64,000 nt of DNA from Larkinella terrae (GTDB lineage Bacteria > Bacteroidota > Bacteroidia > Cytophagales > Spirosomataceae): NCBI RefSeq assembly GCF_009668025.1, contig NZ_WJXZ01000014.1, positions 62,001 to 126,000 on the forward strand, in the 5' to 3' direction. This document shows positions 1-64,000 of the stretch, piece after piece (position 1 is the first letter of the stretch; every line of letters begins with the position of its first letter). Position numbers and translations under genes: made by a program. A model generated the notes under the pieces. The model ran no database searches. It saw nothing but the letters and a program-made list of their open reading frames with translations, and had not been told where the DNA came from.

Positions 1-1
1 G

Positions 2-829
2 CCGAACGTCGCCAAAGGCATTAAGGAAGTTCAGGACGGAATTATTGGTCGACCGTATTTCGCTAAGGGTTGGTACACTAACAACCGGGCGTCGATCGGC
101 ATTGGCAAGGAAGCGCCCGTACCATCATGGCTGAATTACGAGTTGTGGCAGGGACCCGCCCCGCGCCGACCCTTCAAAGACAACCTGCTGCACTACAACT
201 GGCACTGGTTCTGGCACTGGGGAACGGGCGAAGCGCTCAACAACGGCACCCACATGGTCGACCTGATGCGCTGGGGGCTGGGCGTCGAATTCCCGACACG
301 GGTTTCCTCCGCCGGGGGGCGTTACCGGTACAAAGACGATTGGGAAACGCCGGATACTCAGGTGATTACGCTGGAATTCGACAATAACACCAGCATTGCT
401 TGGGAAGGGCGAAGCTGCAACGGGCGTACTGTCGAAGACAATAGCGTGGGTGTGGTTTTTTACGGCGACACCGGTTCTGTGACCATCGAAAGTGGCAATA
501 CTTACAAAGTCTACGATCTGCAGAACAAACTGGTGAAAGAAGCCAAAAACGACTTTGTAGTCGACCCGCGCGACCGGATGAATCCGTCGCAGGCGCTGGA
601 TGCGATCCACATTCAGAATTTCTTCGACGCGATTCGCAAAGGCACGCCGTTGGTTGCCGACATCAAGGGTGGTCACCAGAGCACGCTGTTGTGTCAGTTG
701 GGTAACATCGCCCTCCGGACCGGCGAAACCCTGAACATCGACCCGAGCAACGGCCACATCAAGAATAAGGGCGTCATGAAAAAATACTGGAAACGGGAAT
801 ATCAATCCGGCTGGGAACCAACGGTTTAA
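2..829 (+). CDS. Gfo/Idh/MocA-family oxidoreductase, 5' end outside window
   Basis: This is the C-terminal 275 residues of an NAD(P)-dependent sugar or cyclitol dehydrogenase-like protein. The frame is open from base 2, so the Rossmann N-terminus lies upstream of the window. The visible part is the alpha/beta dimerisation and substrate domain, including the family stretch GEALNNGTHMVDLMRW (residues 'NGTHMVD' resemble the conserved catalytic His region) and W-rich sugar-site segments. Substrate cannot be told from sequence. The next gene, 51 bases on, is a FucP-like sugar transporter on the same strand, which suggests joint use of an imported sugar. Confidence 0.85.
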   Translation, partial: PNVAKGIKEVQDGIIGRPYFAKGWYTNNRASIGIGKEAPVPSWLNYELWQGPAPRRPFKDNLLHYNWHWFWHWGTGEALNNGTHMVDLMRWGLGVEFPTRVSSAGGRYRYKDDWETPDTQVITLEFDNNTSIAWEGRSCNGRTVEDNSVGVVFYGDTGSVTIESGNTYKVYDLQNKLVKEAKNDFVVDPRDRMNPSQALDAIHIQNFFDAIRKGTPLVADIKGGHQSTLLCQLGNIALRTGETLNIDPSNGHIKNKGVMKKYWKREYQSGWEPTV

Positions 830-880
830 TGATTCTTCTTTGCACTCAATTACTCATTCGCTCAATCACTCAATAAATTG

Positions 881-2203
881 ATGAAAGCAACACTGGCGGC
901 CGTCGATGTCAGCGCCTTAAGCAAGCGGGATACGCTCATTTCCATCCTGATCATCGGACTGTTATTCTTTATTTTTGGTTTTGTTACCTGGGTCAACGCC
1001 ATTCTGATTCCGTATTTCAAAATTGCCTGCGAACTCAGTAATTTCCAGTCGTACCTGGTCACGTTTGCGTTTTACATTTCGTATTTCGTGATGTCGGTGC
1101 CGTCGTCGTACCTGCTGAAACGCACCGGTTTTAAAAAAGGTATGATGGTTGGTTTCTGGATTATGGCGGTGGGTGCGTTCATTTTCGTGCCCGCAGCCCT
1201 GACCCGGACCTACGAAATTTTCCTGCTGGGTTTGTTCATGATCGGCGTCGGACTGGCGGTTTTGCAAACGGCGGCCAACCCGTTCATTACCATTCTGGGG
1301 CCACAGGAACGGGCCGCGCAGCGGATCAGCATCATGGGCATTTGCAACAAGGGCGCGGGCGTATTGGCCCCGATTCTGTTTGCCGCCGTGATTCTGCGGG
1401 CCACCGACACCGACCTGTTCGCCCAACTGCCGACCATGTCCGCCGTGGAGCGGAGTGCCGCACTGGACGCGCTGGTTCGGCGGGTGATCATGCCGTATTC
1501 GCTGATGGGCTGCGTGCTGATCGGGCTGGGGTTGATGGTGCGGTTTTCGCCCTTGCCGGAAATCAACACCGAGCAGGAAACCGCCGAAGTCGCAGCCGCC
1601 AATTCCGGGAAAACCTCGATTTTCCAGTTCCCGCACCTGATTCTGGGCGCAGTCGCCATTTTCCTGCACGTCGGCAGTCAGGTCATTGCCGTTGATACGG
1701 TGATTGGGTACGCCAACTCCATGGGAATCAGCCTGCTGGAAGCCAAGACGTTTCCGGCCTACACGCTGACGGCCACGATTTGCGGCTATATTCTGGGCAT
1801 TTCGCTGATCCCAAAAACCATCAGCCAGGTGACGGCTTTCCGGTTTTGTACGATTCTGGGGGCGGTTTTGACGCTGCTGATCATTTACACCAGCGGACCG
1901 ATCACGCTTCTGGGCCATTACGCCGACCGTTCAATCTGGTTTGTCGTGTTGCTGGGTCTGGCGAATTCGCTGGTCTGGGCGGGCATCTGGCCGCTGGCGC
2001 TCGACGGTCTGGGCCGGTTCACGAAACTTGGCGCGGCCATCCTGATCATGGGGCTTTCCGGCAACGCGATCCTCCCGCTTTTCTACGGCCACTACGCCGA
2101 TGCCTATGGTGTCAAAACCGCCTATTGGGTGTTGTTTCCGTGTTATGTGTATCTAATGTTTTATGCGTTTTGGGGGCATAAGGTGAGACGGTGGGTAGGG
2201 TGA
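881..2203 (+). CDS. MFS sugar transporter, FucP/GluP type
   Basis: This is a 440-residue inner-membrane proton-sugar symporter of the fucose/glucose/galactose permease group. About twelve hydrophobic segments are visible, and the sequence LQTAANPFITILG followed by RISIMGICNK is characteristic of the FucP/GluP branch. I chose the ATG at 881; a TTG lies just before it at 878. It probably works with the upstream oxidoreductase. N-acetylglucosamine import (NagP-like) is an alternative given the nag genes 9 kb away, but the sequence does not settle this. Confidence 0.85.
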   Translation: MKATLAAVDVSALSKRDTLISILIIGLLFFIFGFVTWVNAILIPYFKIACELSNFQSYLVTFAFYISYFVMSVPSSYLLKRTGFKKGMMVGFWIMAVGAFIFVPAALTRTYEIFLLGLFMIGVGLAVLQTAANPFITILGPQERAAQRISIMGICNKGAGVLAPILFAAVILRATDTDLFAQLPTMSAVERSAALDALVRRVIMPYSLMGCVLIGLGLMVRFSPLPEINTEQETAEVAAANSGKTSIFQFPHLILGAVAIFLHVGSQVIAVDTVIGYANSMGISLLEAKTFPAYTLTATICGYILGISLIPKTISQVTAFRFCTILGAVLTLLIIYTSGPITLLGHYADRSIWFVVLLGLANSLVWAGIWPLALDGLGRFTKLGAAILIMGLSGNAILPLFYGHYADAYGVKTAYWVLFPCYVYLMFYAFWGHKVRRWVG

Positions 2204-2215
2204 AGTTCATCAATT

Positions 2216-2251
2216 AAATTACATCCGGCTCTAGTAAACCGGATGTAATTT
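2216..2251 (+). terminator. Hairpin downstream of the sugar transporter
   Basis: A perfect 13-bp inverted repeat (AAATTACATCCGG at 2216-2228 with its complement at 2239-2251, loop 10) begins 13 bases after the transporter stop. The T-tract is short, so termination strength is uncertain. Confidence 0.55.
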
Positions 2252-2356: not shown

Positions 2357-2557
2357 ATGAATGAGCTAACCAAATATGATAGCATTCAGGAGTTGAAAGC
2401 CACCGCAAAGCCTATCGACCTGACTTCTGCCAAAGCGAAGGAGCGTCATGATCGGTTTGAACGCTTTATTAACTCTTTGAAAGGGAGCGATGTCAAGGAT
2501 GTGTCGCCGTTACGGAACAAAACGTCTGTAAATAAGGATACTGCCTATGGCCTATGA
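2357..2557 (+). CDS. Small protein paired with a nucleotidyltransferase, possible antitoxin
   Basis: This encodes 66 residues, charged and probably helical, with no family I recognise. I chose the ATG at 2357; an open frame extends upstream to 2294, but that would add an unlikely hydrophobic leader placed on the promoter. Its end overlaps the start of the nucleotidyltransferase gene by 11 bases, so the two are probably translationally coupled. Base composition is clearly A+T richer than the neighbours, as in the next gene. The antitoxin role is inferred only from size, order and overlap. Confidence 0.55.
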   Translation: MNELTKYDSIQELKATAKPIDLTSAKAKERHDRFERFINSLKGSDVKDVSPLRNKTSVNKDTAYGL

Positions 2558-3047
2558 CGATTCTGATCACAATATATTCGAGATATTTAAGCGGAATAAG
2601 GTTGAATATATGGTTGTTGGGGGCTTTGCAGTGTCGTATTATGGAGATTACAGGAAATCAGTAAATCAGGAAGGAAAAATTGTTGACAAACCAGATTTAG
2701 ATTTCTGGTATAATCCAAGCTATGTGAACTATTACCGGTTGCTTGATGCTTTACAGGAGTTGGGTAGAGACGTAGCGAAATATAAAGAAGAAGCCTCCCC
2801 CGATCCCAAACGATCCGTTTTCAAATACGAATTTGACGATTACACACTTGATATCCTGCCAGGCATCAAAGCGCCACTAAAATTCTCGGAAGCTTATGCC
2901 AGAAGAAAAGTTATTGAAAGCAACGGAATTGAAATTTCATTTATCAGCTTTGACGATTTAATCAAGGATAAGCAAGCACTGGGAAGGCAAAAGGATTTTG
3001 ATGATATCGAGAATTTGAGGAAGAATAACCCGTCCAAAACTTCCTAG
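2547..3047 (+). CDS. Nucleotidyltransferase-fold protein, possible toxin of a TA pair
   Basis: This 166-residue protein has the pol-beta/MNT nucleotidyltransferase signature: VVGGFAVSYYG near residue 24, the metal-binding pair in KPDLDFW, and a third acidic residue in YTLDILPG. The C-terminal DLIKDKQALGRQKDFDD segment matches the tail seen in AbiEii-like or DUF6036-like proteins. Such proteins transfer nucleotides to RNA or protein and often sit in toxin-antitoxin or abortive-infection pairs. It overlaps the small gene before it. Low G+C and absence of the AAAACCG heptamer that is frequent elsewhere suggest recent acquisition. Confidence 0.7.
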   Translation: MAYDDSDHNIFEIFKRNKVEYMVVGGFAVSYYGDYRKSVNQEGKIVDKPDLDFWYNPSYVNYYRLLDALQELGRDVAKYKEEASPDPKRSVFKYEFDDYTLDILPGIKAPLKFSEAYARRKVIESNGIEISFISFDDLIKDKQALGRQKDFDDIENLRKNNPSKTS

Positions 3048-21664: not shown

Positions 21665-22576
21665 ATGAATCATTCCCCAATCGGTGGCCTGTGGCCGGCC
21701 CTGTTCACACCAGTCGATCAAAACGGTAACCCTGATTTACACCAACTTGAGAAAATTGTCGAGCTATGCAGTAAGCAAAAACTGGACGGTCTGTATATTT
21801 TAGGCTCCACCGGGCAGGGATTTCTGTTCTCGGAAAAACAACGGATGACCATTACCCAAACCGTGATGGAAACCGTCAACGGCGCCATGCCGGTGATCGC
21901 TCAGGTGGGTGCGCTGAACACGAACGAGTCGATCCGGCTGGCGCAGTCGGCGCAGGAAATGGGCGTTTACGGCATCTCGACCGTCGGCCCGATTTACTAC
22001 CAGTCCGGCGTCCGGAACGCCCTGGCGCATTACTCCGCGATCGGGTCGTCCATCGACATTCCATTTTTTCCGTATCACATTGGGAACCACAGTGTTTTCG
22101 GAGGTGACGCGCGGCAGTACATCGAGCAGATTCTCAGTTTGCCCAACATTGCGGGCATGAAACTCACGACGCAGAACCTGTACGAAATCAGCCTGATTCA
22201 CATTCTGTCGCAGGATAAAATGGTGCTTTTCAGCGGGGCCGACGAGCTGTTCTGTCAGGCTACTTTGTGCGGAACCGTGGGCGCGATCGGGAGCTTTTTC
22301 AACCTCTGGGGCGAGGAGTGCAAGTTCGTGCGCGAAGAGTTTATCAAAGGCAATTTTGAGTTGGGCAACCGGTTTATGCTCACGTTCCAGGAAATTATCT
22401 TCGACGTGTTGCCCAACATCTGGTCGTTCTTCCATCAGGCCATGCTGCTCAAGCACGACATCAACATCGGCGCGCCCAACCCGCCCCTGGGTCTCGGCAA
22501 TTCGCCCTGGAAAGAGAAAGACATCGTGGACATCTGCGACCGGATTTCTGCCGTGAGCGGGCTGGTCAACAATTAA
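21665..22576 (+). CDS. nanA: N-acetylneuraminate lyase-like DHDPS-family aldolase
   Basis: This 303-residue cytosolic class I aldolase should split N-acetylneuraminate into N-acetylmannosamine and pyruvate. The catalytic Tyr137 (in FFPYHIGNHS) and Schiff-base Lys166 (in IAGMKLTTQNLYE) fall at almost the same numbers as Tyr137 and Lys165 of the E. coli enzyme, and the carboxylate-binding loop reads LGSTGQGF. I chose the ATG at 21665 from this alignment. Surrounding sialidase-like genes and a NanM homologue support the assignment; another 2-keto-3-deoxy acid aldolase activity remains possible. Confidence 0.88.
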   Translation: MNHSPIGGLWPALFTPVDQNGNPDLHQLEKIVELCSKQKLDGLYILGSTGQGFLFSEKQRMTITQTVMETVNGAMPVIAQVGALNTNESIRLAQSAQEMGVYGISTVGPIYYQSGVRNALAHYSAIGSSIDIPFFPYHIGNHSVFGGDARQYIEQILSLPNIAGMKLTTQNLYEISLIHILSQDKMVLFSGADELFCQATLCGTVGAIGSFFNLWGEECKFVREEFIKGNFELGNRFMLTFQEIIFDVLPNIWSFFHQAMLLKHDINIGAPNPPLGLGNSPWKEKDIVDICDRISAVSGLVNN

Positions 22577-22587
22577 AAGTCGGCCTT

Positions 22588-22621
22588 GAAACCGGATCGG
22601 ACAAAAAACCGGTCCGGTTTC
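22588..22621 (+). other. Hairpin between nanA and the first sialidase-like gene
   Basis: GAAACCGGA at 22588 pairs with TCCGGTTTC at 22613-22621. No T-run follows, so it is more likely an mRNA processing or stability structure than a terminator. Confidence 0.4.
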
Positions 22622-22664
22622 AATCTTCAGCGATTTTTCACGAAAACCGTACACCAGCAGTAAA

Positions 22665-24431
22665 ATGACGATTCGATTCCTACACAAACACCTGACCGCA
22701 ACGTTCCGGAAGTCCCGATTCGTCGGCATCCCGGTGCATTGCCTCGGTGTTTTCTGGGGAATCGAAAGTTATGCGCAGAGCCCGGATGAGTCATCGTTCG
22801 GAATGCGGCTGCGCGGGATTCCGCAACGGGCGTCCGCGTTGTACGAACCGACCCGCGTAACTTCCGCTCCCACGAATGAAGCCACGCTCATCCGCAGGAA
22901 AAACGGCGGATTAACGGTTTTTTACGTCAATCGGCCCGGCGAAGCTGACAAGCTTCTGTCGATTTCGTCACCGGATGGCTTGAAATGGTCCGAACCGGTG
23001 AAGGAGCTCGACCTGCCGGGGCAGGCGTATTATGCCAACCGCCTGCTGGAAGATCGGAATGGCGGGTTACACTGCATTTTTCATCTGTGGAGTACGGGCG
23101 AAAACGGCTACCGGGGCAGGCATCTGGATGTCTGGTATTGCCGGAAAACCGCTGCGGAAAAAATGTGGAGTTCGCCCCGAAAAATTTACGACGGCTACGT
23201 GGGCTCGATGCGGAGTTTTATTCAGTTGACCACCGGCGAATTGCTGATTTCATTTGCCCGAGCGGTGCCGCAACGGCTGGAAAAACCCGCTGACGGTCAG
23301 AAAGATTACGGCTGGAACGACATTCGGGTAATGGTTTCGGACGACAACGGGCAGAACTGGAAACCGTCAGCGGATCAACTGCGGGTTGAAATCGACGGAC
23401 ACATGCCGGTTCGTTACGGCGGGATTGAACCCGACGTGCTTGAGCTGGCCGATGGCCGGTTGTGGATGCTGATTCGCACGAATAAAGGCCGATTGTACGA
23501 GTCGTTTTCGACGGATCGCGGCAAAAGCTGGCAACCGGCTCAGCCCTCCCGCTTTATTTCTTCGGATTCGCCCGCGGAGCTGCTCCGGCTTTCGGATAAC
23601 CGTATCGTGCTGTTTTACAACGCCAACCAGCGTTGGGACAATCCCCGCAGCTATGCCGCCGGAGGTCGCGAGGTGCTGCACGCAGCCATCAGCCGGAATG
23701 AAGGAAAAACCTGGAAAGGATTTCGGGAAGTGTTGACCACCCCATCGGCCAAACAAAAAGCCACCAACGACCGGGGCACGGCGTATGCGTCGGCAGCGGA
23801 AACCGCCACCGGAAAAGTGGCCTTCGTGGCCGGGCAGGGGGAAGCCAGATCGATCGTACTATTTGATCCCGACTGGCTCGAACAATCCGAAGCTCGGGAC
23901 GATTTTTCCGCCGGGCTGGTGCAATGGACACTGTACGACGCCGACAGCCTGATCCGCTTATCGTCGGACCCAAAAACCGCTCGGAAAGCCTTGCTGGTGA
24001 CCGCGGGCAGCGGAAAAACGAATGCCGAGGCCGTCTGGAATTTCCCGGCTACCGGGCGGGGAACGCTGAAAACCGAGTTGGAAATATCGCCCGATTTGCC
24101 CGCGATTTCGCTGGTGCTGACCGATCATTTTTCGGTTTCGACGGACGCGCAGGCCGCTGAACACAGCGTAGTTGGGTTTTCGTTTAAACCCGCCGACTTC
24201 CCGGAAAAACCGTCGAAAAACCGCTCGACGGTTTTAGAAATTAAGTGGGATTCGGAGAAAAATAAAGCCGTTTTGTACGTAAACGACCGAATGGCGGCCC
24301 AGTCCGATTTCCGTCGTCGACCCGAGTTTGGGTTTAATTACCTGCGGATTGGCCTGGCGAAGCTTGCTGCTCCACCAGCCGCAGTGATGATTCGTTCCGT
24401 AGCGGTTTCCGGTAATAAAAGCAATCATTAG
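22665..24431 (+). CDS. Secreted BNR/sialidase-like protein with C-terminal extension
   Basis: This 588-residue protein has a signal-like segment (IPVHCLGVFWGIESYAQS) and a six-bladed sialidase-type propeller over about residues 60-400 with Asp-boxes such as SSPDGLKW, SDDNGQNW, STDRGKSW and SRNEGKTW. IEPDVLELADGRLWMLIRTN carries the Glu and Arg expected at the sialidase active site. The FRIP motif of classical GH33 enzymes is not visible. About 180 residues at the C-terminus form an additional beta-rich domain of LamG-like character. It probably cleaves a nonulosonate or related glycoside in the periplasm or outside. Confidence 0.78.
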   Translation: MTIRFLHKHLTATFRKSRFVGIPVHCLGVFWGIESYAQSPDESSFGMRLRGIPQRASALYEPTRVTSAPTNEATLIRRKNGGLTVFYVNRPGEADKLLSISSPDGLKWSEPVKELDLPGQAYYANRLLEDRNGGLHCIFHLWSTGENGYRGRHLDVWYCRKTAAEKMWSSPRKIYDGYVGSMRSFIQLTTGELLISFARAVPQRLEKPADGQKDYGWNDIRVMVSDDNGQNWKPSADQLRVEIDGHMPVRYGGIEPDVLELADGRLWMLIRTNKGRLYESFSTDRGKSWQPAQPSRFISSDSPAELLRLSDNRIVLFYNANQRWDNPRSYAAGGREVLHAAISRNEGKTWKGFREVLTTPSAKQKATNDRGTAYASAAETATGKVAFVAGQGEARSIVLFDPDWLEQSEARDDFSAGLVQWTLYDADSLIRLSSDPKTARKALLVTAGSGKTNAEAVWNFPATGRGTLKTELEISPDLPAISLVLTDHFSVSTDAQAAEHSVVGFSFKPADFPEKPSKNRSTVLEIKWDSEKNKAVLYVNDRMAAQSDFRRRPEFGFNYLRIGLAKLAAPPAAVMIRSVAVSGNKSNH

Positions 24432-24459
24432 CTGACTCTAAACCCTTAACACTTTTTGT

Positions 24460-25614
24460 ATGAACGTCTTGAAAACAATAAAACCGGTCGTCGTTCTGCT
24501 TCTCGCTGGGCTGGCCCTAACGGGTAGCGTACCGGTTTTGGCACAAACCGCCGGGCTGGACAAATCCGGCGGGAAAACGACGACTTCGGGCTCCTGGATT
24601 GCCGACAAGGTGCAGGAAATTCCGGGACTGAAAATGGGGCCGTTCGTTCGGCTGGCCGACGGCGGAATTCTGACGGTTTTGAAAACCAAAAGCCTGATTA
24701 GCAAGGACGAAGGTAAAACCTGGACGGAATACCCGATTTTCAACGATCCCGAAAAGTTTGAAATCAGTGAGGAACGGGCGTTGATTCGCACCAAAAAAGG
24801 GGCGATTATTCTGGCCTGCATGAACCTGAAAGAACGTGCCAACTGGAACTGGCAGAAGGAAATTTCCGACTCGCCGGACGCCAAATTGCCGACCTACACC
24901 GTGCGCAGTCTCGACGGCGGCAAAACCTGGCAGGATGCCCAGAAACTCCACGACGAGTGGACCGGCGCCATCCGCGACATGATCGAAACCAAAGACGGCA
25001 GCATCGTTTTTACGTCCATGATGATGCAGCACAATCCGGGTCGGCATTCGGTTTTGACCTATTCGTCCAAAAACGAGGGCAAAAGCTGGACGCGCAGCAC
25101 GATCATCGATCTGGGCGGAACCGGTCACCACGGCGGAGTGACGGAAGCGACCGTCGAGCAGTTGAAGGATGGCCGTCTGTGGCTGCTGCTTCGCACCAAC
25201 TGGGGCAGCTTCTGGGAGGCTTATTCCAAAGACGACGGCGTTACCTGGAGCGGGTTTAACCCGACGAAAATCAGCGCCAGCTCGGCGCCCGGTTTACTCA
25301 AACGCCTGAAAGACGGCAAGTTGGTGCTGGTCTGGAACCGCCGTTTTCCGGAAGGAAAAGTAGACTATAAACTCAGTGGGGGCGATAACCAATGGTCGGA
25401 AGTTCCGGCCAGCAATCACCGCGACGAGCTGTCGATCGCCTTTTCGAGCGACGAGGGCAAGACCTGGAGCAAACCGGTCGTTTTCGCCGAGCGCGGCACC
25501 CAGCCCCGCCTGTCGTATCCGTACCTATTTGAAGAAAAGCCGGGCCTGCTCTGGATCACCGTCATGCAGGGCGAACTGCGCGTCAAACTGGAAGAAAAGG
25601 ACTTTTTGCGGTAA
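24460..25614 (+). CDS. Secreted BNR/sialidase-like protein
   Basis: This 384-residue protein has a signal peptide (IKPVVVLLLAGLALTGSVPVLAQ) and the sialidase propeller with Asp-boxes SKDEGKTW, SLDGGKTW, SKNEGKSW, SKDDGVTW and SSDEGKTW. The segment VTEATVEQLKDGRLWLLLRTN supplies the conserved Glu and Arg, and a Tyr near the C-terminus (LSYPYLFEE) could be the nucleophile. It lacks FRIP. It follows the previous sialidase-like gene by 28 bases and is co-directional, so probably co-transcribed. Not closely similar to the two following paralogues. Confidence 0.78.
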   Translation: MNVLKTIKPVVVLLLAGLALTGSVPVLAQTAGLDKSGGKTTTSGSWIADKVQEIPGLKMGPFVRLADGGILTVLKTKSLISKDEGKTWTEYPIFNDPEKFEISEERALIRTKKGAIILACMNLKERANWNWQKEISDSPDAKLPTYTVRSLDGGKTWQDAQKLHDEWTGAIRDMIETKDGSIVFTSMMMQHNPGRHSVLTYSSKNEGKSWTRSTIIDLGGTGHHGGVTEATVEQLKDGRLWLLLRTNWGSFWEAYSKDDGVTWSGFNPTKISASSAPGLLKRLKDGKLVLVWNRRFPEGKVDYKLSGGDNQWSEVPASNHRDELSIAFSSDEGKTWSKPVVFAERGTQPRLSYPYLFEEKPGLLWITVMQGELRVKLEEKDFLR

Positions 25615-25641
25615 GCTAATGTTCAGTTAAACGATCAAAAA

Positions 25642-28750: not shown

Positions 28751-28762
28751 ACCGGGTTTGCC

Positions 28763-36227: not shown

Positions 36228-36236
36228 ACTTCGTTA

Positions 36237-36255: not shown

Positions 36256-36329
36256 TTGATTGTCAAAGGTTTAAACAATGTGAGCTATGAAATTTTCAGA
36301 TTGATATCCAGCTAATTAAGTGCCAGCGG

Positions 36330-36475: not shown

Positions 36476-36532
36476 TCATCTCAAAGCTCACGTTAAATAG
36501 CGATTGCTGAATAGCGAACAACGAAGTTGAAA

Positions 36533-37363: not shown

Positions 37364-37373
37364 TGACTGTAAG

Positions 37374-38438: not shown

Positions 38439-38469
38439 TGGACTGGTTTGTGGTGTCGTGAGGAGCAGA

Positions 38470-38516
38470 CTATTGACCATTGACCATAGTCCATTGACGA
38501 ATGACCATAGTCTGTG
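38470..38516. repeat. Short-unit repeat tract
   Basis: TATTGACCA, CATTGACCATAGTC, CATTGACGA and ATGACCATAGTC units lie between the mutarotase and aldo/keto reductase genes. They resemble the tract at 27503-27626 in unit type. Confidence 0.6.
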
Positions 38517-38541
38517 GAGTATAACCTTAAATGCTTTACGA

Positions 38542-39480
38542 ATGAAGTACAGAATATTTCGCGATTACCGGTTTTCTCAATTAACGCTGGGAACCGTGCA
38601 GTTGGGTTTGAATTACGGCATTTCGAACTCGGCAGGAATTCCGGATCGGGAGGAGAGCTTCCGGATGCTGCATTATGCGGCTCAGGCCGGCATCAGCACG
38701 CTTGACACCGCGCGCCAGTACGGCTATTCGGAACAGGTTCTGGGGGATTTTTTGGAAAAAACCGGTGATCGATACGCGCTCAATCTGGTTTCAAAATTTA
38801 AGATCAGTCCGGCTCATTTCGGCAATCTGGAGCGGGCGTGGAGCGAAGTTCGCCAGAGTGTTGTGGAGTCGTTGACGGCTTTGGGAATCAGGCAATTGCC
38901 GGTTTGCCTGCACCACAAAGGCCAGGAAGACATGCGGGATGTGATCCACATTCTGCCCACCATTTTGCACCGATTGAAGGAGGAAGGGCTGATCGACATC
39001 GGCGGAGTTTCGGCTTTTCGGCCCGAAGATGTCGAATACATTTTGGACGAGGAAGTGATGGAAGCCACCCAGATTCCGCTGAACATCTTTGACCAGCGTT
39101 TGTTGAAAACCGGTTTGCTCAATCAACTCCGGGCGCAATCGAAGCTCGTGTTTGTCCGCAGTGTGTTTTTGCAGGGATTGTTTTTTATGAATCCGGCGCA
39201 GTTGAACGGAACCCCGAAAAAGGCTGCGCACTTGCTGATTGCGCTGCAAAATCTGGCCAAACGGGCGCAGATGTCCGTCGCCCAGCTCGCTTTTTCGTTC
39301 GTTCGGGATTTGCCAGCGGTGGATAGCATCGTCTTTGGCGCAGTCAATCAGCAGCAGATTCAGCAAAATAGCGAGTTGCTGGCCGGTCCGCCGATTCCGC
39401 CGGAGCTGCTGGCCGAAATTCAGGAAGTGTTTGATTCCGTGGAAGAAGAAATCATTACGCCCGCGGTCTGGGTCTCCTAA
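38542..39480 (+). CDS. Aldo/keto reductase
   Basis: This 312-residue NADPH-dependent TIM-barrel oxidoreductase has the catalytic tetrad in LDTARQYGYSE (Asp, Tyr), LVSKF (Lys) and VCLHHKG (His). The C-terminal cofactor site reads VDSIVFGAVNQQQIQQN. It belongs to the group near pyridoxal or D-threo-aldose dehydrogenases. I chose ATG at 38542 since the frame upstream runs through repeats. In this locus it may reduce or oxidise a sugar derived from the released acid; that role is inferred from position only. Confidence 0.85.
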   Translation: MKYRIFRDYRFSQLTLGTVQLGLNYGISNSAGIPDREESFRMLHYAAQAGISTLDTARQYGYSEQVLGDFLEKTGDRYALNLVSKFKISPAHFGNLERAWSEVRQSVVESLTALGIRQLPVCLHHKGQEDMRDVIHILPTILHRLKEEGLIDIGGVSAFRPEDVEYILDEEVMEATQIPLNIFDQRLLKTGLLNQLRAQSKLVFVRSVFLQGLFFMNPAQLNGTPKKAAHLLIALQNLAKRAQMSVAQLAFSFVRDLPAVDSIVFGAVNQQQIQQNSELLAGPPIPPELLAEIQEVFDSVEEEIITPAVWVS

Positions 39481-39486
39481 CCTTCA

Positions 39487-39546
39487 TTATTCGGTGTTCG
39501 CTATTCGCTATTCGTTATTCAATATTTAATTAATAACGAACACCAG
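39487..39546. repeat. Inverted repeat with ATTCG units
   Basis: GGTGTTCG (39493-39500) pairs with CGAACACC (39537-39544); between them CTATTCG units repeat. It separates the aldo/keto reductase and the last SDR gene. Confidence 0.6.
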
Positions 39547-39566
39547 CGCCTGTAATCTTACCAAGT

Positions 39567-40358
39567 ATGAAAAACCTATTCAGTCTTGAAGGCAAAATCG
39601 CTATTGTAACCGGTGGCGCGGGCTTTTTCGGGACACCGATTTCCATCGCACTGGCCGAAGCCGGAGCGACGGTTGTTATTGCGTCTCGTGATGGTGAAAA
39701 ATGCCGGAAATTTGCCGCGACGATTCAGGAAAAAGGATTTTGCGCCGAAGGACTGGCGATGGATCTGGAGGATGAAAATTCCATTCGGACGTTCGTGGAC
39801 ACGGTAAAAAACCGCTTCGGGCGAATCGATATTCTCGTCAACAATGCGGTTTCGCGTGACGGTTTCAAGAATCTGGAAGACATCGACAAGGCCAGTTGGG
39901 AAAAAGCCCAGCGGATCAACTCGACCGGTCTGGTGCTGATTACCCAAGCGGTTATTGAAGTGATGCGTCCGCAGCAATCCGGTAACATCATCAACATCAG
40001 CTCGATTCAGGGCGCGGTCGGTCCCCATTTTCCCGTTTACGGCAACACCGGCATGACGAGTCCGGTCAATTATACGTACGACAAATGGGGCATGGTGGGC
40101 TTCACCAAATGGCTGGCCAACTTCTACGGAAAAGACAACATCCGGGCCAACTGCATCAGCCCCGGCGGCTACGGGCCAGGCGTCGCCCAAATGATTGGAA
40201 AAGAGGAGTTTGTTGAAAATTACAAGCGCCTGACGCCCCTGGGGCGGTTTGCCAGCGACGACGACATCAAAGGCCCGATTGTATTCATGGCCTCGGATGC
40301 GTCGGCGTTCGTTACCGGGCAGAACCTGCTGGTCGACGGCGGCTGGACGAGCTGGTAA
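39567..40358 (+). CDS. SDR-family oxidoreductase (second of the locus)
   Basis: This 263-residue short-chain dehydrogenase has TGGAGFFGTP as the nucleotide site, NNAVS, the catalytic Ser in ISSIQG and Tyr/Lys in NYTYDKWGM. A short insertion near residue 150 (PHFPVYGNTGMTSPVNYT) is unlike the first SDR of the locus and resembles gluconate 5-dehydrogenase-like or sialic-acid-type SDRs. It is the last gene before a strong terminator and so likely closes the 23-kb locus. Confidence 0.87.
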   Translation: MKNLFSLEGKIAIVTGGAGFFGTPISIALAEAGATVVIASRDGEKCRKFAATIQEKGFCAEGLAMDLEDENSIRTFVDTVKNRFGRIDILVNNAVSRDGFKNLEDIDKASWEKAQRINSTGLVLITQAVIEVMRPQQSGNIINISSIQGAVGPHFPVYGNTGMTSPVNYTYDKWGMVGFTKWLANFYGKDNIRANCISPGGYGPGVAQMIGKEEFVENYKRLTPLGRFASDDDIKGPIVFMASDASAFVTGQNLLVDGGWTSW

Positions 40359-48879: not shown

Positions 48880-48902
48880 CAAAACCGGGTAGGAGCCTTC
48901 GG

Positions 48903-49583
48903 ATGAAAACACTGGTAATTGAAGACGATCAACGGGTTGCCGACCTCATCAAACGGGGATTGGAGGAAGAAGACTGGCAGGTGGACGTCGCTTTCGACGG
49001 TCAGATGGGCTGTCGGCTGGCGTTATCGGTGGAGTACGATCTGATCATTACGGATGTTATCCTCCCCAAAATCAACGGGTTGGATGTCTGCCAGCAGGTT
49101 CGGCTGGCCAAACCGAATGTGCCGATCATCATGCTGACGGCGCTCGGGACCACCGACGATAAAGTGGAGGGCTTCGACGCCGGAGCGGACGATTACCTGG
49201 TGAAACCGTTCGATTTTCGGGAATTGCACGTTCGCATCCGGGCGTTGCTGAAACGGCAGGCCAACCAGCCCGTAGCCACTACCTCGATTCTGAAAATGGC
49301 GGATCTGGAGATGAATCTCCGCAACAAGTCGGTGATGCGCAGCGGCCAGCCGATCAGCCTGACACCCAAGGAGTTTAAGCTGCTTGAGTTCATGATGCTT
49401 AACCCCGGCCGCCTGCTGACCCGCACCGAAATTGCCGAAAAAGTGTGGGAAACGCATTTCGATACGGGCACCAATTTCATCGATGTCTACATCAATTACC
49501 TGCGCAAAAAGCTGGATAAGGAGTTTGAGCGGAAGCTGATTCACACCAAAACCGGAATGGGTTTTATCTTCGGGGAGGGCTAA
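48903..49583 (+). CDS. OmpR-family response regulator of the efflux operon
   Basis: This 226-residue protein has a receiver domain (acidic pocket VIEDDQ, phospho-acceptor Asp in LIITDVILPKING, Lys in YLVKPFDF) and an OmpR/PhoB winged helix (about 130-226; SLTPKEFKLLEFMM, DVYINYLRKKLDKEF). The CusR/CzcR-like layout with the kinase gene three bases downstream and an HME-RND efflux operon after it suggests control of metal export. Its likely target is the set of 11-bp-phased direct repeats at 50964-51003. Confidence 0.9.
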   Translation: MKTLVIEDDQRVADLIKRGLEEEDWQVDVAFDGQMGCRLALSVEYDLIITDVILPKINGLDVCQQVRLAKPNVPIIMLTALGTTDDKVEGFDAGADDYLVKPFDFRELHVRIRALLKRQANQPVATTSILKMADLEMNLRNKSVMRSGQPISLTPKEFKLLEFMMLNPGRLLTRTEIAEKVWETHFDTGTNFIDVYINYLRKKLDKEFERKLIHTKTGMGFIFGEG

Positions 49584-49586
49584 ACG

Positions 49587-50966
49587 ATGCGGATTCGGAC
49601 GAAACTGGCCATGCTTTTTACCGCCATCACGGCGGCCATTCTGCTGTTGTTTGCCGTGTCGATTTACCTTTCCTACGCCGATTACCGGGAGGAGTCCTTT
49701 TATAAACTGCTGAAACAACAGGCGCTGACCAAACTCCGGCTGCTTTTGAATGCGAAAGTTGAACCGGATGTTCTGAAGGTGATTTACCAGAACGCGCCAA
49801 ACGCCCGGTTTCAGGAGGAAGTGGCGGTTTACGATGCCCGGTTTCGCCTGATCTACCACGACGATCAACAGGGCGATTTTGTGAAAGAAACCCCGACCTT
49901 GCTGGATGCCATCCGGCAGCAGAAAGAGTTTCAGTTTGAGCAACAGGGCCGCCAGGTGGTCGGTTTTCCGTACAAATTTCAGGGCGAGACGTACCTGGTT
50001 ACCGCAGCCGCTTACGATGAAGTGGGCCTTTCGAAGCTTGAAAATCTGCGCATCACGCTGATTGTGGCCTTTATGCTGGGGCTGCTGATCGTGGCGCTGG
50101 TGAGTCGGCTGGTGGCCCGGCAATTGCTCAGACCCATCTCGACCGTGGTGCGGCAGGCCAGTGAAATCACGGCGACCAACCTCGATCGGCGGGTGGAAGA
50201 GGGCAACGGGCGCGACGAACTGGCCGAGCTGGCCATCACATTCAATCAGATGCTCGACCGGCTGGAACAATCGTTCGATGCCCAGAAACAATTCGTTTCC
50301 AACGTCTCGCACGAACTGCGAACGCCCCTGGCGGCCATTGCCGGGGAACTCGAACTGGCGTCGAACAAACCCCGGAGTACGTCAGAATATCAGGCGGTTA
50401 TTTCCCGGGCGCTGCGCGACGCCCGGCGGCTGACGCACCTTTCCAACGGCCTGCTTGATCTGGCGAAAGCCAGTTACGACGCCAGTGAAATCTCGTTCCG
50501 TGAACTTCGGCTGGACGAATTGCTGATGGAAGCCCGGGGGCAATTGCTCCACCAGCATCCCGAATACCGCATAACGATTGTTTTTGAACAGGAAATCGAA
50601 GACGACCAACTGATTTCGGTTCGCGGAAATGCGTATCTGCTGCGGGTAGCGTTTAGTAACCTGATGGAGAACGGCTGCAAATTTTCGCCCGATCAACACT
50701 GCACGGTGACCGTCAAATCTCTGTCCGACCTGTGTCGGCTGAGCTTTATCGATGAGGGAATCGGCATTTCGGACGATGACCTACCGCACGTATTTACGGC
50801 GTTTTACCGGGGTCAAAACCACACCTACGCCGACGGCAACGGCATTGGCCTCTCGCTGACGCTCCGCATCATCAGTTTGCACCAGGGCGGTATTTCGGTC
50901 AAAACCGACCCCGGCCAGCGCACTATTTTCGAAGTCGAACTGCCGCATTTGAAAACCGCTCTTTAA
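49587..50966 (+). CDS. Membrane sensor histidine kinase
   Basis: This 459-residue protein has two membrane segments (about residues 8-30 and 150-175) around a periplasmic sensor domain of some 120 residues, a HAMP linker, a HisKA helix (His in FVSNVSHELRTPLAAI) and a HATPase (NLMENGCKF, DEGIGI, GNGIGLSL). It pairs with the OmpR-type regulator. Metal sensing is inferred from the adjacent efflux genes; the sensor domain has no obvious Cys/His cluster. The stop codon TAA itself forms the start of the first direct repeat. Confidence 0.9.
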   Translation: MRIRTKLAMLFTAITAAILLLFAVSIYLSYADYREESFYKLLKQQALTKLRLLLNAKVEPDVLKVIYQNAPNARFQEEVAVYDARFRLIYHDDQQGDFVKETPTLLDAIRQQKEFQFEQQGRQVVGFPYKFQGETYLVTAAAYDEVGLSKLENLRITLIVAFMLGLLIVALVSRLVARQLLRPISTVVRQASEITATNLDRRVEEGNGRDELAELAITFNQMLDRLEQSFDAQKQFVSNVSHELRTPLAAIAGELELASNKPRSTSEYQAVISRALRDARRLTHLSNGLLDLAKASYDASEISFRELRLDELLMEARGQLLHQHPEYRITIVFEQEIEDDQLISVRGNAYLLRVAFSNLMENGCKFSPDQHCTVTVKSLSDLCRLSFIDEGIGISDDDLPHVFTAFYRGQNHTYADGNGIGLSLTLRIISLHQGGISVKTDPGQRTIFEVELPHLKTAL

Positions 50967-51003
50967 CAGCCTTTTAATAGCATTCTAATAACTCTCTAAC
51001 AAC
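50964..51003 (+). promoter_or_regulatory. Four 11-bp-phased direct repeats, probable response-regulator boxes
   Basis: TAACAGC (50964), TAATAGC (50975), TAATAAC (50986) and TAACAAC (50997) recur with an exact 11-base period. PhoB/OmpR-family regulators bind such direct repeats in tandem. They end about 20 bases before the -7 box, replacing the missing -33 element, the position expected for activation. Confidence 0.65.
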
Positions 51004-51022
51004 CTCCCGGTTTCGTAAACCG

Positions 51023-51030
51023 TACTTTTG
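51023..51030 (+). promoter_or_regulatory. -7 promoter box of the efflux operon
   Basis: TACTTTTG matches TAnnTTTG exactly. No -33 TTG is found at the right distance; instead the direct repeats occupy that place. The following ATG at 51075 has an unusual (for this phylum) AAGGAGG at 51064-51070. Confidence 0.5.
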
Positions 51031-51074
51031 CGGTTGGTGGCTTGCCGCTCACCCGACCGAATCAAGGAGGAATT

Positions 51075-52352
51075 ATGAAAAACCGGATGGCGAAACTGCG
51101 CAAAAAAGAGGCCGGTTTCATCCTAAGTGTCCTGCTCAGTGGCAGCCTTTTCGCGCAATCTCCCCGCACGCTGACACTTCCCGAAGCCATTGCCGAAGCC
51201 CGGCAGCACAACCCGGTTTTGCGGGCCGAACAGCTTTCCATTCAATCATCCCTGGCTGATGTCGTAACCGCCGGTCTGCGCCCCAATCCGGTGCTCAACA
51301 ATCAGACGTTGCAACTGGTTAAACCGGCTGCGTTTCCGGAAAATACCGGCGCATTGAATAACCGCAACCGGCAGGTCTGGTGGCAGTTGACGACGCCCGT
51401 CAATGTGGCCCGCAAGCGTCAGAAAGCCGTTGCCCTCGCCGAACAGGGCGTTGAACTGACCCGCCGGAATGTGGCCGAAACGGAGCGGAATCTGTTGCTC
51501 GACGTGGGCAACCAATGGCTCGATGCCTGGACCGCCCGGCGTCGGCTCGAACTGATTCTGGAGGCCCAGCAAAACATCGACACGCTCGTTACCATCAATC
51601 AGGTACGCCTTCGGAATCAGGTGATTACGAAAACCGATCTGTTGCGAACCCAGATTCTGGCCGATCAATACCGGCTCCGCAGCCAGACCACCCGCCAGGA
51701 ATACCAGAACCAACTGCTGCTGCTGAAACGCCTGCTGGGAACCGCCGACAGCCTCGACATTTCGATGGATGACACGGCGCTGGCCTGGAAAACCGGTCCT
51801 GCTGATACGCTCATTACGCGGGCGCACCTCAAACGTTCGGACGTCCGGGTAGCCGAACAGGCCATTGAAGTGTCGACCCAGAATACCCGTTTGCAGGAAG
51901 CCCTGCGGGCACCCCAGCCCGAAGTTGGGGCGATTTACAATCCCCAGAACAGCGTTCCCTACGTCGGGTTTTACGGGACTTTGCCACTGCCGTTTTTCAA
52001 CAAAAATCAGGGCGGAATCCAGAAAGCGAAAGTGCAGCAGGAACAGGCCCGGCAGGTGGCCGATTACACCCGGCTCCAGGTGCAGACGGAAGTGCAAACC
52101 GCTTACCGCAGTTACCTGACGCAGCGCGGAAATGTTGACCGGTATGAGGGTATTCTGCAGCAGTCGGAACAGATTCTGACCAGTGTCCGCTATGCCTATC
52201 TGAAAGGCGGAACGACCATTGTCGATTACCTGGAAGCCCAGCGTTCGTGGCTCGATGTTCAGCAAACGTACCTCGATGCGCAGGAATCCTACCGGCGCAG
52301 CCTGCTTCAATTGTGGTTTGTAACGGGGCAGATGCCAACCCAAAACCGATGA
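51075..52352 (+). CDS. TolC/CzcC-family outer-membrane efflux protein
   Basis: This 425-residue protein has an N-terminal export signal (FILSVLLSGSLFAQS after a basic stretch) and two OEP repeats of long helices (TLPEAIAEARQHNPVLRAEQ near residue 40; NRNRQVWWQLTTPVNVARKRQKA) typical of CzcC/CusC. It forms the outer-membrane duct of the tripartite pump. Its start is preceded by AAGGAGG with four bases spacing, which decides the start. Stop overlaps the adaptor ATG (ATGA). Confidence 0.9.
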   Translation: MKNRMAKLRKKEAGFILSVLLSGSLFAQSPRTLTLPEAIAEARQHNPVLRAEQLSIQSSLADVVTAGLRPNPVLNNQTLQLVKPAAFPENTGALNNRNRQVWWQLTTPVNVARKRQKAVALAEQGVELTRRNVAETERNLLLDVGNQWLDAWTARRRLELILEAQQNIDTLVTINQVRLRNQVITKTDLLRTQILADQYRLRSQTTRQEYQNQLLLLKRLLGTADSLDISMDDTALAWKTGPADTLITRAHLKRSDVRVAEQAIEVSTQNTRLQEALRAPQPEVGAIYNPQNSVPYVGFYGTLPLPFFNKNQGGIQKAKVQQEQARQVADYTRLQVQTEVQTAYRSYLTQRGNVDRYEGILQQSEQILTSVRYAYLKGGTTIVDYLEAQRSWLDVQQTYLDAQESYRRSLLQLWFVTGQMPTQNR

Positions 52353-53368
52353 AAATGAATAAGATAACTCTGGGCCTGCTGGTGATGGTGTGCGGCACGG
52401 CCTGCCAGGAAAAACCGTCGGCGGTGGCCGTTCAGAAACCGGTTTCGCGCCCCGTTGTGCAGGACAGCGGTCGGTTGATCGAGGTGGGCCCCGATTCGAC
52501 GACCATCCGGTTTTTCCAAACCGAGTCGGTACAAAACCGCAGTTTAACGGCTGATTATCAGGCTCCGGCCCATGTCGTAGCCACGGTGATCGGTTCGGGG
52601 GAAAGTGAAGGAAAACCGATGGTTTTGTTTGATAACCCGGATCTGACCGACAATTATTCGCAGTTGCAGCAACACCTGACCAACATCCGCCAACTTCAGG
52701 ACGTCAACATGAAGCAGAAACTGATTGAGCTGGATCGGGCCAAAGACCTTGCCGAACACGGAGCCGCCACGGGGCGCGAAGTGCTGGAAGCGCAGTCGGC
52801 GCTGGCGATGGTGCGGACCAATCTGGCCAACGAACGCGCGCTGCTGTCGGAGCACGAAACCAAATTGAAACTGGCCGGATTCGATCCGGTTAGCCTCCAG
52901 CGCGCCCGACCCGGGCAAGCCTGGCTGATTTGTGATGTGCCTGAAAGTCAGGTGAATAAATTGAAAGTGGGCCATGTCGCCACGATCCGGTTCACAGCCT
53001 ATCCCGACGAAACCGTCAGCGGTCGCATCGAGTCGTTCGGCGACGTGGTCGACAATGTGACCCGAACCATCAAGCTCCGCATCCGCCTGGATAATCCGGC
53101 GGGAAAATTCCGGGCGGGGATGTTTGCCACGGTTTCGTTTGGAATTTCCGAAGGCCAGTTTATGTCGCTGCCGCAAACCGCTCTGGTGACCGTTCAGGGA
53201 AAAGATTACGTATTTATCAAGTCGGCACCCCGCCGGTTCGAACGCCGGGAAGTGACGCTGGGCCAGCAGATTGGCGACCGGATTGTGGTTTTTCACGGAC
53301 TAAAAGAAGCAGAAGCGGTGGTAATCAAAGGCACCATGCAGCTCAAAGGGCTGAGTTTCGGGTATTAA
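52349..53368 (+). CDS. Efflux RND periplasmic adaptor lipoprotein
   Basis: This 339-residue membrane-fusion protein has a lipobox (VMVCGTAC, acylated Cys about residue 19), a short hairpin (KLIELDRAKDLAEHGAATGREVLEA), then a beta-barrel domain (WLICDVPESQVNKLKVGHVA) and membrane-proximal domain (SLPQTALVTVQGKDYVF). It links the outer-membrane duct and the RND pump. There is no obvious Met/His metal-binding N-terminus. It is coupled to the TolC-like gene by a four-base overlap and lies three bases from the pump gene. Confidence 0.9.
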   Translation: MKMNKITLGLLVMVCGTACQEKPSAVAVQKPVSRPVVQDSGRLIEVGPDSTTIRFFQTESVQNRSLTADYQAPAHVVATVIGSGESEGKPMVLFDNPDLTDNYSQLQQHLTNIRQLQDVNMKQKLIELDRAKDLAEHGAATGREVLEAQSALAMVRTNLANERALLSEHETKLKLAGFDPVSLQRARPGQAWLICDVPESQVNKLKVGHVATIRFTAYPDETVSGRIESFGDVVDNVTRTIKLRIRLDNPAGKFRAGMFATVSFGISEGQFMSLPQTALVTVQGKDYVFIKSAPRRFERREVTLGQQIGDRIVVFHGLKEAEAVVIKGTMQLKGLSFGY

Positions 53369-61938: not shown

Positions 61939-61985
61939 ACCGGAAAGGCGCAGGTCGAAAACCCGCGCCTTTCCGGTAAAGCACT
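61939..61985. terminator. Bidirectional terminator between the GH43-like gene and aspS
   Basis: A perfect 13-bp stem (ACCGGAAAGGCGC at 61939-61951, complement at 61965-61977). T-rich sequence follows on both strands. Confidence 0.8.
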
Positions 61986-61994
61986 TTTTATTCC

Positions 61995-63764
61995 TTATTT
62001 TTTTGCGACCGCAATCTGCAGTTCGTCCAGTTGCGCCGGAGCAATTGCGGACGGCGAGTCGATCATGACGTCGCGGCCCGAGTTGTTTTTCGGGAAAGCA
62101 ATGAAATCGCGGATGGAATCGGCGCCCCCGAAAATGGAGCAAAGCCGGTCGAAACCGAACGCGATACCGCCGTGGGGCGGAGCGCCGAACTCGAACGCAT
62201 CCAGTAAAAAACCGAACTGCGCCTTGGCTTCTTCGGGCGTGAAACCCAGCAGATCGAACATGCGCGACTGCAAATCCCGCTGGAAAATCCGGATTGAACC
62301 ACCACCCACTTCGGTGCCGTTGATCACCATGTCGTAGGCATTGGCCCGCACCGCGCCGGGATCGGTTTCCAGCAATTTAATATCTTCCGGTTTGGGCGAT
62401 GTGAACGGGTGGTGCATGGCAAACCAGCGGTTTTCTTCTTCGCCGAATTCCAGCAGCGGGAAATCCAGTACCCACAACGCGCTGAACTGGTTCGGATCGC
62501 GCAGACCCAGCCGACTGCCCATTTCCAGCCGCAATTCGCTCAGCTGTTTCCGGACCTTATTGGTTTCGCCGGACATAACCAGCAGTAAATCACCCGGTTC
62601 GGCCTGGAACTGAACCACCCAATGTTTCAGGTCTTCTTCCGAATAAAACTTGTCGACCGATGATTTGATCGTTCCATCTTCGTTATACCGGACGTAAATC
62701 AATCCTTTTCCGCCAATCTGGGGGCGTTTGATGAAGTCCGTGAGTTCGTCTACCTGTTTGCGGGTGTAATGGGCGCAGCCTTTGGCGTTGATCCCGATCA
62801 CCAGCTCCGCTGAATCGAACACGACGAAGTTTTTCCCTGACGTCAGATCCACGGTGTCAAAAGCGCCTTTCAACTCAACAAACGACATCCCGAAACGCGT
62901 ATCCGGTTTGTCGGAACCGTACAGGCGCATGGCTTCGGCGTAGGTCATGCGGGGCACTTCGTCCAGCGTGAGACCAATCACGTTTTTGAACAGGTGCCGC
63001 ACCAGGCCTTCGAACATCTGAAGAATATCTTCCTGCTTAATGAACGACATCTCGCAGTCGATCTGGGTAAATTCCGGCTGGCGGTCGGCCCGCAGGTCTT
63101 CATCCCGGAAACACTTGACAATCTGGTAATACCGGTCAAAACCCGATACCATCAGCAGTTGCTTGAACGTCTGGGGCGATTGCGGCAGGGCGTAAAATTC
63201 GCCCGGATTCATGCGGCTCGGCACCACGAAATCGCGGGCACCTTCCGGCGTCGATTTAATCAAAACCGGGGTTTCGACCTCAATAAAATCCTGGCCGTCC
63301 ATGTAAATCCGCGTCTGCTGCGCCATTTTGTGCCGCAATTCGAGATTCTTACGAACGGGATTCCGGCGTAAATCGAGGTAGCGGTATTTCATCCGCAGGT
63401 CGTCGCCACCGTCGGTATCGTCTTCAATCAGAAACGGCGGCAGTTTGGCCGGATTCAATATTTCCAGCTTTTCCAGCCGGATTTCGATGTCACCCGTTGG
63501 CAGATTAGGATTTTTGGATTTGCGCTCGATCACTTCGCCGGTGGCTTTCAGAACAAACTCCCGACCCAGCGTGCGGGTCAGGGCGATGGTTGCCGGGTCG
63601 GTTTTTCCTTCTTCGAGCAACAGTTGGGTCAGGCCGTAGCGGTCGCGCAGGTCGATCCAGATCAGACCCCCTTTGTCGCGGATACGCTGGACCCAGCCAC
63701 AGAGAATAACTTGTGTGTTAACGTGTTCGATGCGAATTTCTCCGCAGGTATGAGATCGAAGCAT
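61995..63764 (-). CDS. aspS: Aspartyl-tRNA synthetase
   Basis: This 589-residue class II synthetase charges tRNA-Asp. An N-terminal OB anticodon domain (about 1-110; [21 protein letters not shown]) precedes the catalytic domain with motif 2 [19 protein letters not shown], a bacterial GAD insertion (about 300-420) and motif 3 [10 protein letters not shown] near the end. The usual bacterial length fits the ATG at 63764; the frame remains open to 63950 but that part has no homology-like features. Housekeeping gene; no neighbours in common. Confidence 0.97.
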
Positions 63765-63844
63765 ACTCTTCAAATGGTTCAATAAGCCGCAAATGTAGCC
63801 AAAGTATACCCGCCTATCAAGCCGAAATAAAAATCGATGCCGGA

Positions 63845-64000
63845 TTATTGAGCAGCAACGACCGGCGCCTTTTGCAGGAAAGCCCGGGCAAAGCTTTGGG
63901 TGTAGCGGGTGGCGGTTTTCCGGTTCAGGTGTTTGCCGTCGTCGGAACAATCGGCGGGGAAGGGCGATGTGAATGCCCGATGAAAGGGAACGGCAATCCG
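63845..64000 (-). CDS. C-terminus of a probable SGNH-type hydrolase, 5' part outside window
   Basis: The last 51 codons of a gene read in from beyond the window. The piece contains [15 protein letters not shown], where Asp-Gly-Lys-His followed by Leu-Asn matches the Asp-x-x-His end of SGNH/GDSL hydrolases, then [10 protein letters not shown] and a short tail. With so little sequence the family is a guess. Confidence 0.45.

Follow-up and report, generated by a model that had tools for sequence, protein, structure and literature searches.

The window analyzed here is a stretch of 64,000 bases, C6:62001-126000 of the Larkinella terrae genome G000 (7,846,626 bases, 22 contigs), in which the short word AAAACCG, or CGGTTTT as read on the opposite strand, recurs in genes and spacers at 2.89 copies per kb. 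SusC/SusD genes and the nearest named RpoB loci (Rufibacter 83%, Hymenobacter 82%, Cyclobacteriaceae 81%; none of the 80 loci kept exceeded 83%, in a set that may lack near relatives) put the genome in Bacteroidota, most likely in the order Cytophagales. The first-pass annotation of this DNA had claimed heavy over-representation of the word, with hand counts for two stretches, one on BNR-repeat genes and one on a set of response regulator, histidine kinase, OEP and HlyD/CusB-like genes (Table 1), and none in an A+T-rich stretch; exact counting returns the same numbers in all three places, and the general claim proves right, even understated. The empty stretch is weak evidence by itself (P ~0.14 at the density of the window), and its label as a nucleotidyltransferase pair is not confirmed by the one frame of the pair that was scanned, the 166-residue open reading frame at 2547-3047, which has no Pfam match at E 0.001.

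Table 1. Features of the window, in coordinates counted from its first base
Feature	Position	Strand	Remarks
AAAACCG (+, 87) / CGGTTTT (-, 98)	1..64000	both	185 copies, spread over the whole window
Word-free A+T-rich stretch	2357..3047		GC 0.40, zero copies
First stretch counted by hand	22561..25860		16 copies; BNR-repeat genes 22803-24431 and 24460-25614 (Pfam BNR_2) with flanking DNA
AAAACCG cluster example	24206..24235		Copies at 24206 (+), 24217 (+), 24229 (-)
Largely collinear stretch	28001..40358	+	Shared with six other species of the genus: G064, G098, G075, G083, G052, G037
Three CGGTTTT copies 12 bp apart	28821..28851	-	At 28821, 28833, 28845
Second stretch counted by hand	48901..52620		13 copies; covers the next three genes and the start of the fourth
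Response regulator	48903-49583		Gene call and family match
Histidine kinase	49587-50966		Gene call and family match
OEP	51075-52352		Gene call and Pfam family
HlyD/CusB-like	52349-53368		Only its start lies inside 48901..52620

The copies in the window compare with expectations of 7.1 from base composition and 25.6, 49.9, 58.5, 123.6 and 174.7 from Markov models of orders 1 to 5; of all 7-mers that occur there 10 times or more, AAAACCG has the highest z under both the second- and the third-order model. The fifth-order model absorbs the word because the 6-mer AAACCG, itself enriched (350 copies in the window), sits inside it. Across G000 we count 18,454 copies (9069 forward and 9385 reverse, 2.35/kb), compared with 2,909 (1444 + 1465) of the reversed word, our control. 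A 0.796-Mb sample, made up of the window and 40 further stretches with 3,675 bases masked, holds 1903 copies for 90.7, 312, 590, 672, 1196 and 1717 expected at orders 0 to 5, and the excess thus survives the third-order check that had been proposed for it. Among 7-mers with at least 50 copies in this sample, AAAACCG is top by z at order 2; at order 1 it ranks first or second according to the score used, its z of 90 being the highest among 7-mers.

The excess does not follow the reading frame. With genes from a home-made caller (589 genes, coding fraction 0.80), which may miss some, copies in the window divide by codon phase into 38, 17 and 15 in sense and 12, 41 and 30 in antisense, with 30 intergenic and 2 spanning a gene edge. 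Relative to synonymous shuffles within genes, the word is enriched 2.34, 2.36 and 3.66 fold in the sense phases and 2.84, 7.09 and 7.44 fold in the antisense phases (total 3.78); relative to shuffles that also preserve codon junctions, the six classes run from 1.72 to 3.39 (total 2.38). Control totals are 1.10 and 0.90, respectively. Between genes (547 gaps under 1500 bases, 114.6 kb), it is the top 7-mer, with 300 copies for 79.8 expected at order 2, or 2.62/kb. Copies therefore lie in different codon phases and in spacers, as originally claimed, and restriction to one phase, which the first-pass annotation had named as a check, is not what the 2.3- to 7.4-fold range over synonymous shuffles shows.

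The core AAACCG has preferred surroundings: A before it (52%), C or G after it (68%), and then T or C (65%). Of the 21 one-mismatch neighbors of AAAACCG, 14 do not exceed 1.07 times the number expected at order 2, and the seven above comprise the three first-position variants (1.63 to 1.94), AATACCG (1.77), AAAGCCG (1.52), ATAACCG (1.40) and AAATCCG (1.25). Both word and core are asymmetric, and the palindromic extension AACCGGTT is not favored beyond its halves in the window (24 copies for 35.7 at maximal-order expectation).

Placement of the copies is random. With the replication strand inferred from GC skew, and four weak-skew stretches and two masked contigs left out, the two orientations count 497/551 where skew exceeds 0.01 and 334/343 where it is below -0.01, summing to 840 leading-type and 885 other copies. 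This lack of polarity leaves the suggested segregation, or KOPS-like, role unsupported. No even spacing was found either in the gaps between copies, which are near exponential (standard deviation/mean 1.11), or in 1-kb bins, which are Poisson (variance/mean 1.04, plasmid contig left out). Inverted pairing was considered and dropped, as neighbors up to 60 bases apart divide into 80 +-, 73 --, 67 ++ and 56 -+; a terminator-like role was likewise rejected, as convergent gaps are just slightly denser (3.62 per kb) than tandem (3.09) and divergent ones (2.54).

Density is lower in A+T-rich DNA (0.55/kb in 11 kb with GC below 40%), and contig C2 (16.6 kb) is nearly word-free, with 5 copies or 0.30/kb. 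We take C2 for a plasmid because it matches RepA, a ParA-type ATPase and MobA/MobL and carries an AlwI-type restriction-modification pair. The pair consists of a D12 methyltransferase and an AlwI-type endonuclease in the open reading frames 2800-4680 and 4683-6449 of this contig (L005). As a separate observation, the sampled DNA avoids GGATCC (39 versus 132), GCCGGC (77 versus 490) and other palindromes.

Substitutions avoid the word. We aligned three trios of genomes, namely G000 and G064 with outgroup G098 (120,392 columns), G075 and G083 with G052 (115,833), and G091 and G037 with G014 (27,788), about 264 kb in total, to which the collinear stretch of the window contributes; expected numbers come from rates by branch, codon position and trinucleotide and ignore site-specific constraint. 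Inside 782 ancestral copies, counted per branch, 107 substitutions were observed for 218.6 expected, a ratio of 0.49, and all seven positions fall short (0.73, 0.49, 0.26, 0.43, 0.62, 0.45 and 0.53) compared with 20 flanking positions on each side that scatter around 1 (0.71 to 1.54). The deficit recurs in every trio (0.44, 0.58 and 0.57) and codon position (first 16 versus 28.8, second 8 versus 15.0, third 70 versus 150.0), and shows no dependence on distance to the nearest other copy: 0.49 within 150 bases, 0.53 to 500 and 0.42 beyond. The 104 other permutations of the same letters give a pooled ratio of 0.97, with three low-count permutations ranking below AAAACCG, and nine further words, each represented by 138-364 ancestral copies, give 0.69 to 1.11. 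The base before or after the core AAACCG grades the loss, with ratios of 0.65, 0.84 and 0.94 for GAAACCG, CAAACCG and TAAACCG, and of 0.50, 0.71, 0.75 and 0.98 for AAACCGC, AAACCGG, AAACCGT and AAACCGA, so that the protected motif is roughly (A>G)AAACCG(C>G,T). Neutral simulation returns a loss ratio of 0.92+-0.07 (16 runs), and again 0.92 in 12 separate runs. AATACCG, the top 7-mer in G052 and frequent in its kin, was examined as a candidate and is not protected (0.94).

Gains of AAAACCG number 55 for 36.8 expected, a ratio of 1.50, and arise through many different substitution types. A first version of this statistic (x1.74, P 1e-4; scaled strength S naively estimated at 1.24 for losses and 1.23 for gains) was withdrawn because parsimony inflates the gains of an enriched word, as the neutral simulation revealed. 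A fixation bias simulated at S=1.2 gives a loss of 0.58+-0.04 and a gain of 1.59+-0.18, close to the observed 0.49 and 1.50. The deficit of losses stands; the raw excess of gains is not secure.

High density is confined to the genus of the window. In a survey of 120 family genomes from 30 genera, scored for the word and the reversed control, all nine genomes of this genus stand out, at 0.78 to 2.38/kb and each at least about 3.3 times the control, while the other 111 stay at or below about 0.52/kb; among 391 further genomes of the phylum the highest density is about 0.77/kb. This comparison with related genera, called for by the first-pass annotation, thus bears out a lineage-specific word. 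Density rises in the order G014, G091, G037, G052, G098, G075, G083, G000, G064, and in an rpoB tree G014, the poorest, branches first, then G091 with G037, then the other six, so that the word builds up along the tree. The fork between G000, G064 and the clade with G098 is unresolved in this tree, and G000 and G064 were paired by identity (0.870 versus 0.827). In 40- to 260-kb samples, AAAACCG ranks first by order-2 z in G064, G098, G075 and G083, second in G052, 19th in G037 and 26th in G091.

A second word occupies another part of the family. Of the 29 other genera, 20 were sampled by a single stretch (18 of 20 at 20 kb), and among the 19 stretches screened AAGTACC was enriched in those of G021 (55 versus 9.2) and G015 (17 versus 4.3). 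In a dialect screen, our caller, which had been trained on G000, yielded no usable genes for the stretches of G001, G020, G029 and G030, and that of G005 measures 1,052 bases, leaving 5 of the 20 genera without a coding/intergenic test; G023, G013 and G010 each gave less than 7.2 kb of coding sequence. Scanning all 120 genomes, we find 15,982 copies in G021 (8091+7891; reversed control 1323), 2579+2527 in G015 (1371), 1769+1785 in G013 (1201), 1851+1930 in G036 (1183) and 1465+1559 in G003 (1578, a ratio of just 1.9x), with at most about 0.27/kb in the other 115 genomes and values below the reversed control in every one of the nine genomes from the genus of the window. A 60-kb sample of G021 shows AAGTACC enriched in each codon phase on both strands (1.8 to 26x, total 7.8x, with fewer than 10 copies in four of the six classes) and at 4.9/kb between genes. 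A gyrB tree of 20 genomes places the four AAGTACC genera as two pairs in a six-row clade (100/99) with the unenriched G010 and G028, and the genus of the window in a separate clade (100/100) with six unenriched genera. AAGTACC and AAAACCG share the core ACC, as clade-specific dialects might, a suggestive likeness between the two sequences.

Several lesser observations belong with this survey. In stretches of G021 (L225, L233 and L234), AGGTACCT occurs 70 times for 1.4 expected at order 1 and AAAGTACC 96 times for 2.0, and the surroundings of AAGTACC in this genome are near-palindromic around GTAC. AATAGCC, hinted at as a third dialect by 20-kb samples, was rejected as merely modest: it stays at or below about 0.46/kb among the 120 genomes, with peak density in G001 (1436+1430 versus 593+606 reversed) and a peak ratio of ~3.3x the control in G019 (865+732 versus 237+251). 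AATCCGG (18 versus 3.2 in one G091 stretch, L142) may be a further word.

Together, the excess, the protection and the replacement word elsewhere point to a process that recognizes and favors the word. Our preferred reading, held with a little less than even confidence, is that AAAACCG, with its core AAACCG, is a genus-specific hyperabundant word kept by a DNA-level, word-specific fixation bias that would amount to molecular drive. Since spacing is not even and loss is independent of neighbors, the sites appear to be favored independently and not selected for coverage; since copies are favored singly, anywhere and in either orientation, the process would be drive-like, or else weak selection acting uniformly at a scaled strength near 1.2. 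Somewhere in DNA uptake, recombination or repair, a step that reads the sequence might let word-bearing alleles win over near-misses. Each site would then be favored on its own, copies would accumulate at any unconstrained position, and a shift in recognition specificity would set a new lineage building a new word. Our first guess for such a step is biased uptake with recombination, and our second is word-directed repair. More broadly, and with greater reserve, we suggest that this Bacteroidota family may possess a recognition system that multiplies the word it targets, site by site, into the thousands per genome and has changed specificity at least once, with AAAACCG the dialect of one genus and AAGTACC that of a separate clade. 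Such self-marking would resemble that of uptake sequences or HIP1, in a phylum for which the open-licence literature listed showed no case.

The uptake sequences (DUS and USS) of Neisseriaceae and Pasteurellaceae are the closest parallel for our first guess, being asymmetric and present in thousands of copies; in the available parts of PMC3630211 and PMC1939737, their dialects are clade-specific, follow phylogeny and are thought to spread by drive. AAAACCG likewise counts thousands of copies on both strands, without polarity, and is rare in foreign DNA (one plasmid contig). For DUS we compute roughly 0.9-2.5 per kb from the counts given in the accessible text of PMC3630211 and the meningococcal genome size. 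DUS are, however, 10-mers with a demonstrated uptake function (same excerpts of PMC3630211), whereas AAAACCG is a 6-7-mer whose role in uptake would be putative.

A number of points weigh against fixation bias as the explanation. Ancestors were reconstructed by parsimony and genes by our own caller, and protection in noncoding DNA alone is weak (13 versus 17.8). By trio, gains are 40 versus 21.9, 12 versus 11.5 and 3 versus 3.4, the second and third trios thus showing no excess. Neutral simulations give gains of 1.29+-0.15 (range 0.96-1.49, 16 runs), with the observed 1.50 at their top edge, and of 1.36+-0.18 (range 1.03-1.58, 12 runs), which includes it; a simulation with reduced loss only gives 1.01+-0.23 (range 0.65-1.54, 16 runs) and just reaches it. 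The case for directional gain accordingly rests on this loss-only simulation and an equilibrium argument given below. In the first-branching G014, AAAACCG ranks 783rd among 7-mers by order-2 z (40-kb sample), so that a second-order model fails to pick it out in this poorest species. No protein of DNA uptake, recombination or repair could be tied to AAAACCG, which is shorter than known uptake sequences, and the available part of PMC1939737 cites even spacing for those sequences, where the copies here are random.

Among the alternatives, a HIP1-like origin holds that an orphan DNA methyltransferase recognizes AAACCG and that sites arise and persist through mismatch repair directed by methylation or through some role of the mark; we regard it as unlikely. 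The word is, as the first-pass annotation had suggested, genome-wide in the manner of HIP1, and it is over-represented to an extreme degree independently of codon phase and codon pairs. According to the portions of PMC4390886 available, HIP1 and the alternate HIPs of cyanobacteria (GCGATCGC and others) reach 500-2500 per Mb, a range that includes the 2,352 per Mb seen here, and are swapped in some lineages for alternate words that match methyltransferases. Those portions also describe HIPs as palindromic and tied to orphan methyltransferases, unlike the asymmetric AAAACCG, and give a model that saturates at ~1 site/kb, compared with up to 2.4/kb and neighbor-independent loss here. AAAACCG differs further in that its high density is confined to one genus. 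PF01555 has no match in 5 of 21 genomes, including G000 and G052, and PF07669 has one marginal match in G000 (E 2.5e-4) and none in G091. No methyltransferase of these two classes is therefore common to the genus, and a simple HIP1-type link to them fails, PF02384, PF00145 and PF02086 not having been searched genome-wide.

Functional selection, in which the word would be read like Chi by an AddAB/RecBCD-type nuclease or serve as a nucleoid protein site, seems equally improbable to us. Short, asymmetric, hyperabundant words that differ between lineages are typical of Chi, and AAAACCG fits this description; its strong protection from loss and its near absence from the plasmid contig agree with such a role. 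Chi is, however, typically co-oriented with replication, with an excess on the leading strand, and KOPS and other architecture-imparting sequences, likewise short chromosome-wide words, are strongly polarized from origin to terminus, whereas AAAACCG shows neither bias at either sign of skew. If coverage were under selection, copies should also be evenly spaced and redundant ones lost faster; the data show neither, and convergent, tandem and divergent gaps differ little. In excess over base composition (1903 versus 90.7), the word outdoes Chi of E. coli, for which the accessible text of PMC1939737 gives 1008 versus 151 (for Chi see also the available part of PMC5443536).

Context-dependent mutation, with AAAACCG a cold spot or the product of biased mutation, is in our judgment very unlikely. 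A cold spot would halve substitution across the seven positions just as observed, and the raw gains, not clearly above neutral simulation, can just be reached by reduced loss. Against this, gains arise through many substitution types and not one, most one-mismatch neighbors are unenriched, and neither the pooled permutations nor the nine other words show such an effect. Moreover, halved loss alone would yield only ~2x at equilibrium, and the standing excess in G000 is larger under every null used (2.4 with the junction-preserving shuffle, 2.8 at order 3, 3.2 at order 2, 3.8 with the synonymous shuffle), so that we favor a directional model. Loss of mismatch repair was also considered and set aside, as the MutS1 frame is open in all nine genomes of the genus. 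Separately, a distant MutS-like match at G000:C4:168501-169268, with relatives in G098, G075, G052 and G083, carries one in-frame stop in five of the six genomes listed.

Codon usage, codon-pair bias (the main alternative in the first-pass annotation) or amino-acid composition can be dismissed as the source of the excess, for although certain dipeptides that could encode the word occur somewhat often (NR 1.34, KP 1.37) and maximal-order Markov models absorb the word into its own 6-mer, it exceeds both kinds of shuffle in every phase and orientation and leads the 7-mers between genes, provided that these gaps do not consist largely of genes overlooked by the caller.

What makes certain bacterial genomes accumulate a single short word has been asked since the discovery of HIP1 and uptake sequences. 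Among the matches listed from open-licence literature, the text available contained no report of AAAACCG, nor of any word so abundant in these bacteria. The family studied here has two such words, each in its own clade, a density that climbs by degrees over nine species (0.78 to 2.38/kb) and unenriched neighbors as controls, so that comparative genomics can approach the cause through genes that follow the word in presence or specificity. Were AAAACCG a signal for uptake or recombination, it would also show where gene exchange meets barriers and offer a tool for transforming these bacteria; were it a signal for methylation or repair, HIP1 would have a counterpart that is not a palindrome.

The window also holds repeats of other kinds. 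Two dispersed intergenic repeats recur among the matches listed, one at 32361-32438 (~78 bp) with dozens of copies at 82-94% in G075 and G083, and the other at 36278-36498 (~170-220 bp) with several copies in G064, G075 and G083. The words CATCGAC and ATCGAC are common in several species of the genus, and a tandem array of ~11 copies of ATCGTCA occupies 27549-27624, in the gap after the gene at 25810-27531.

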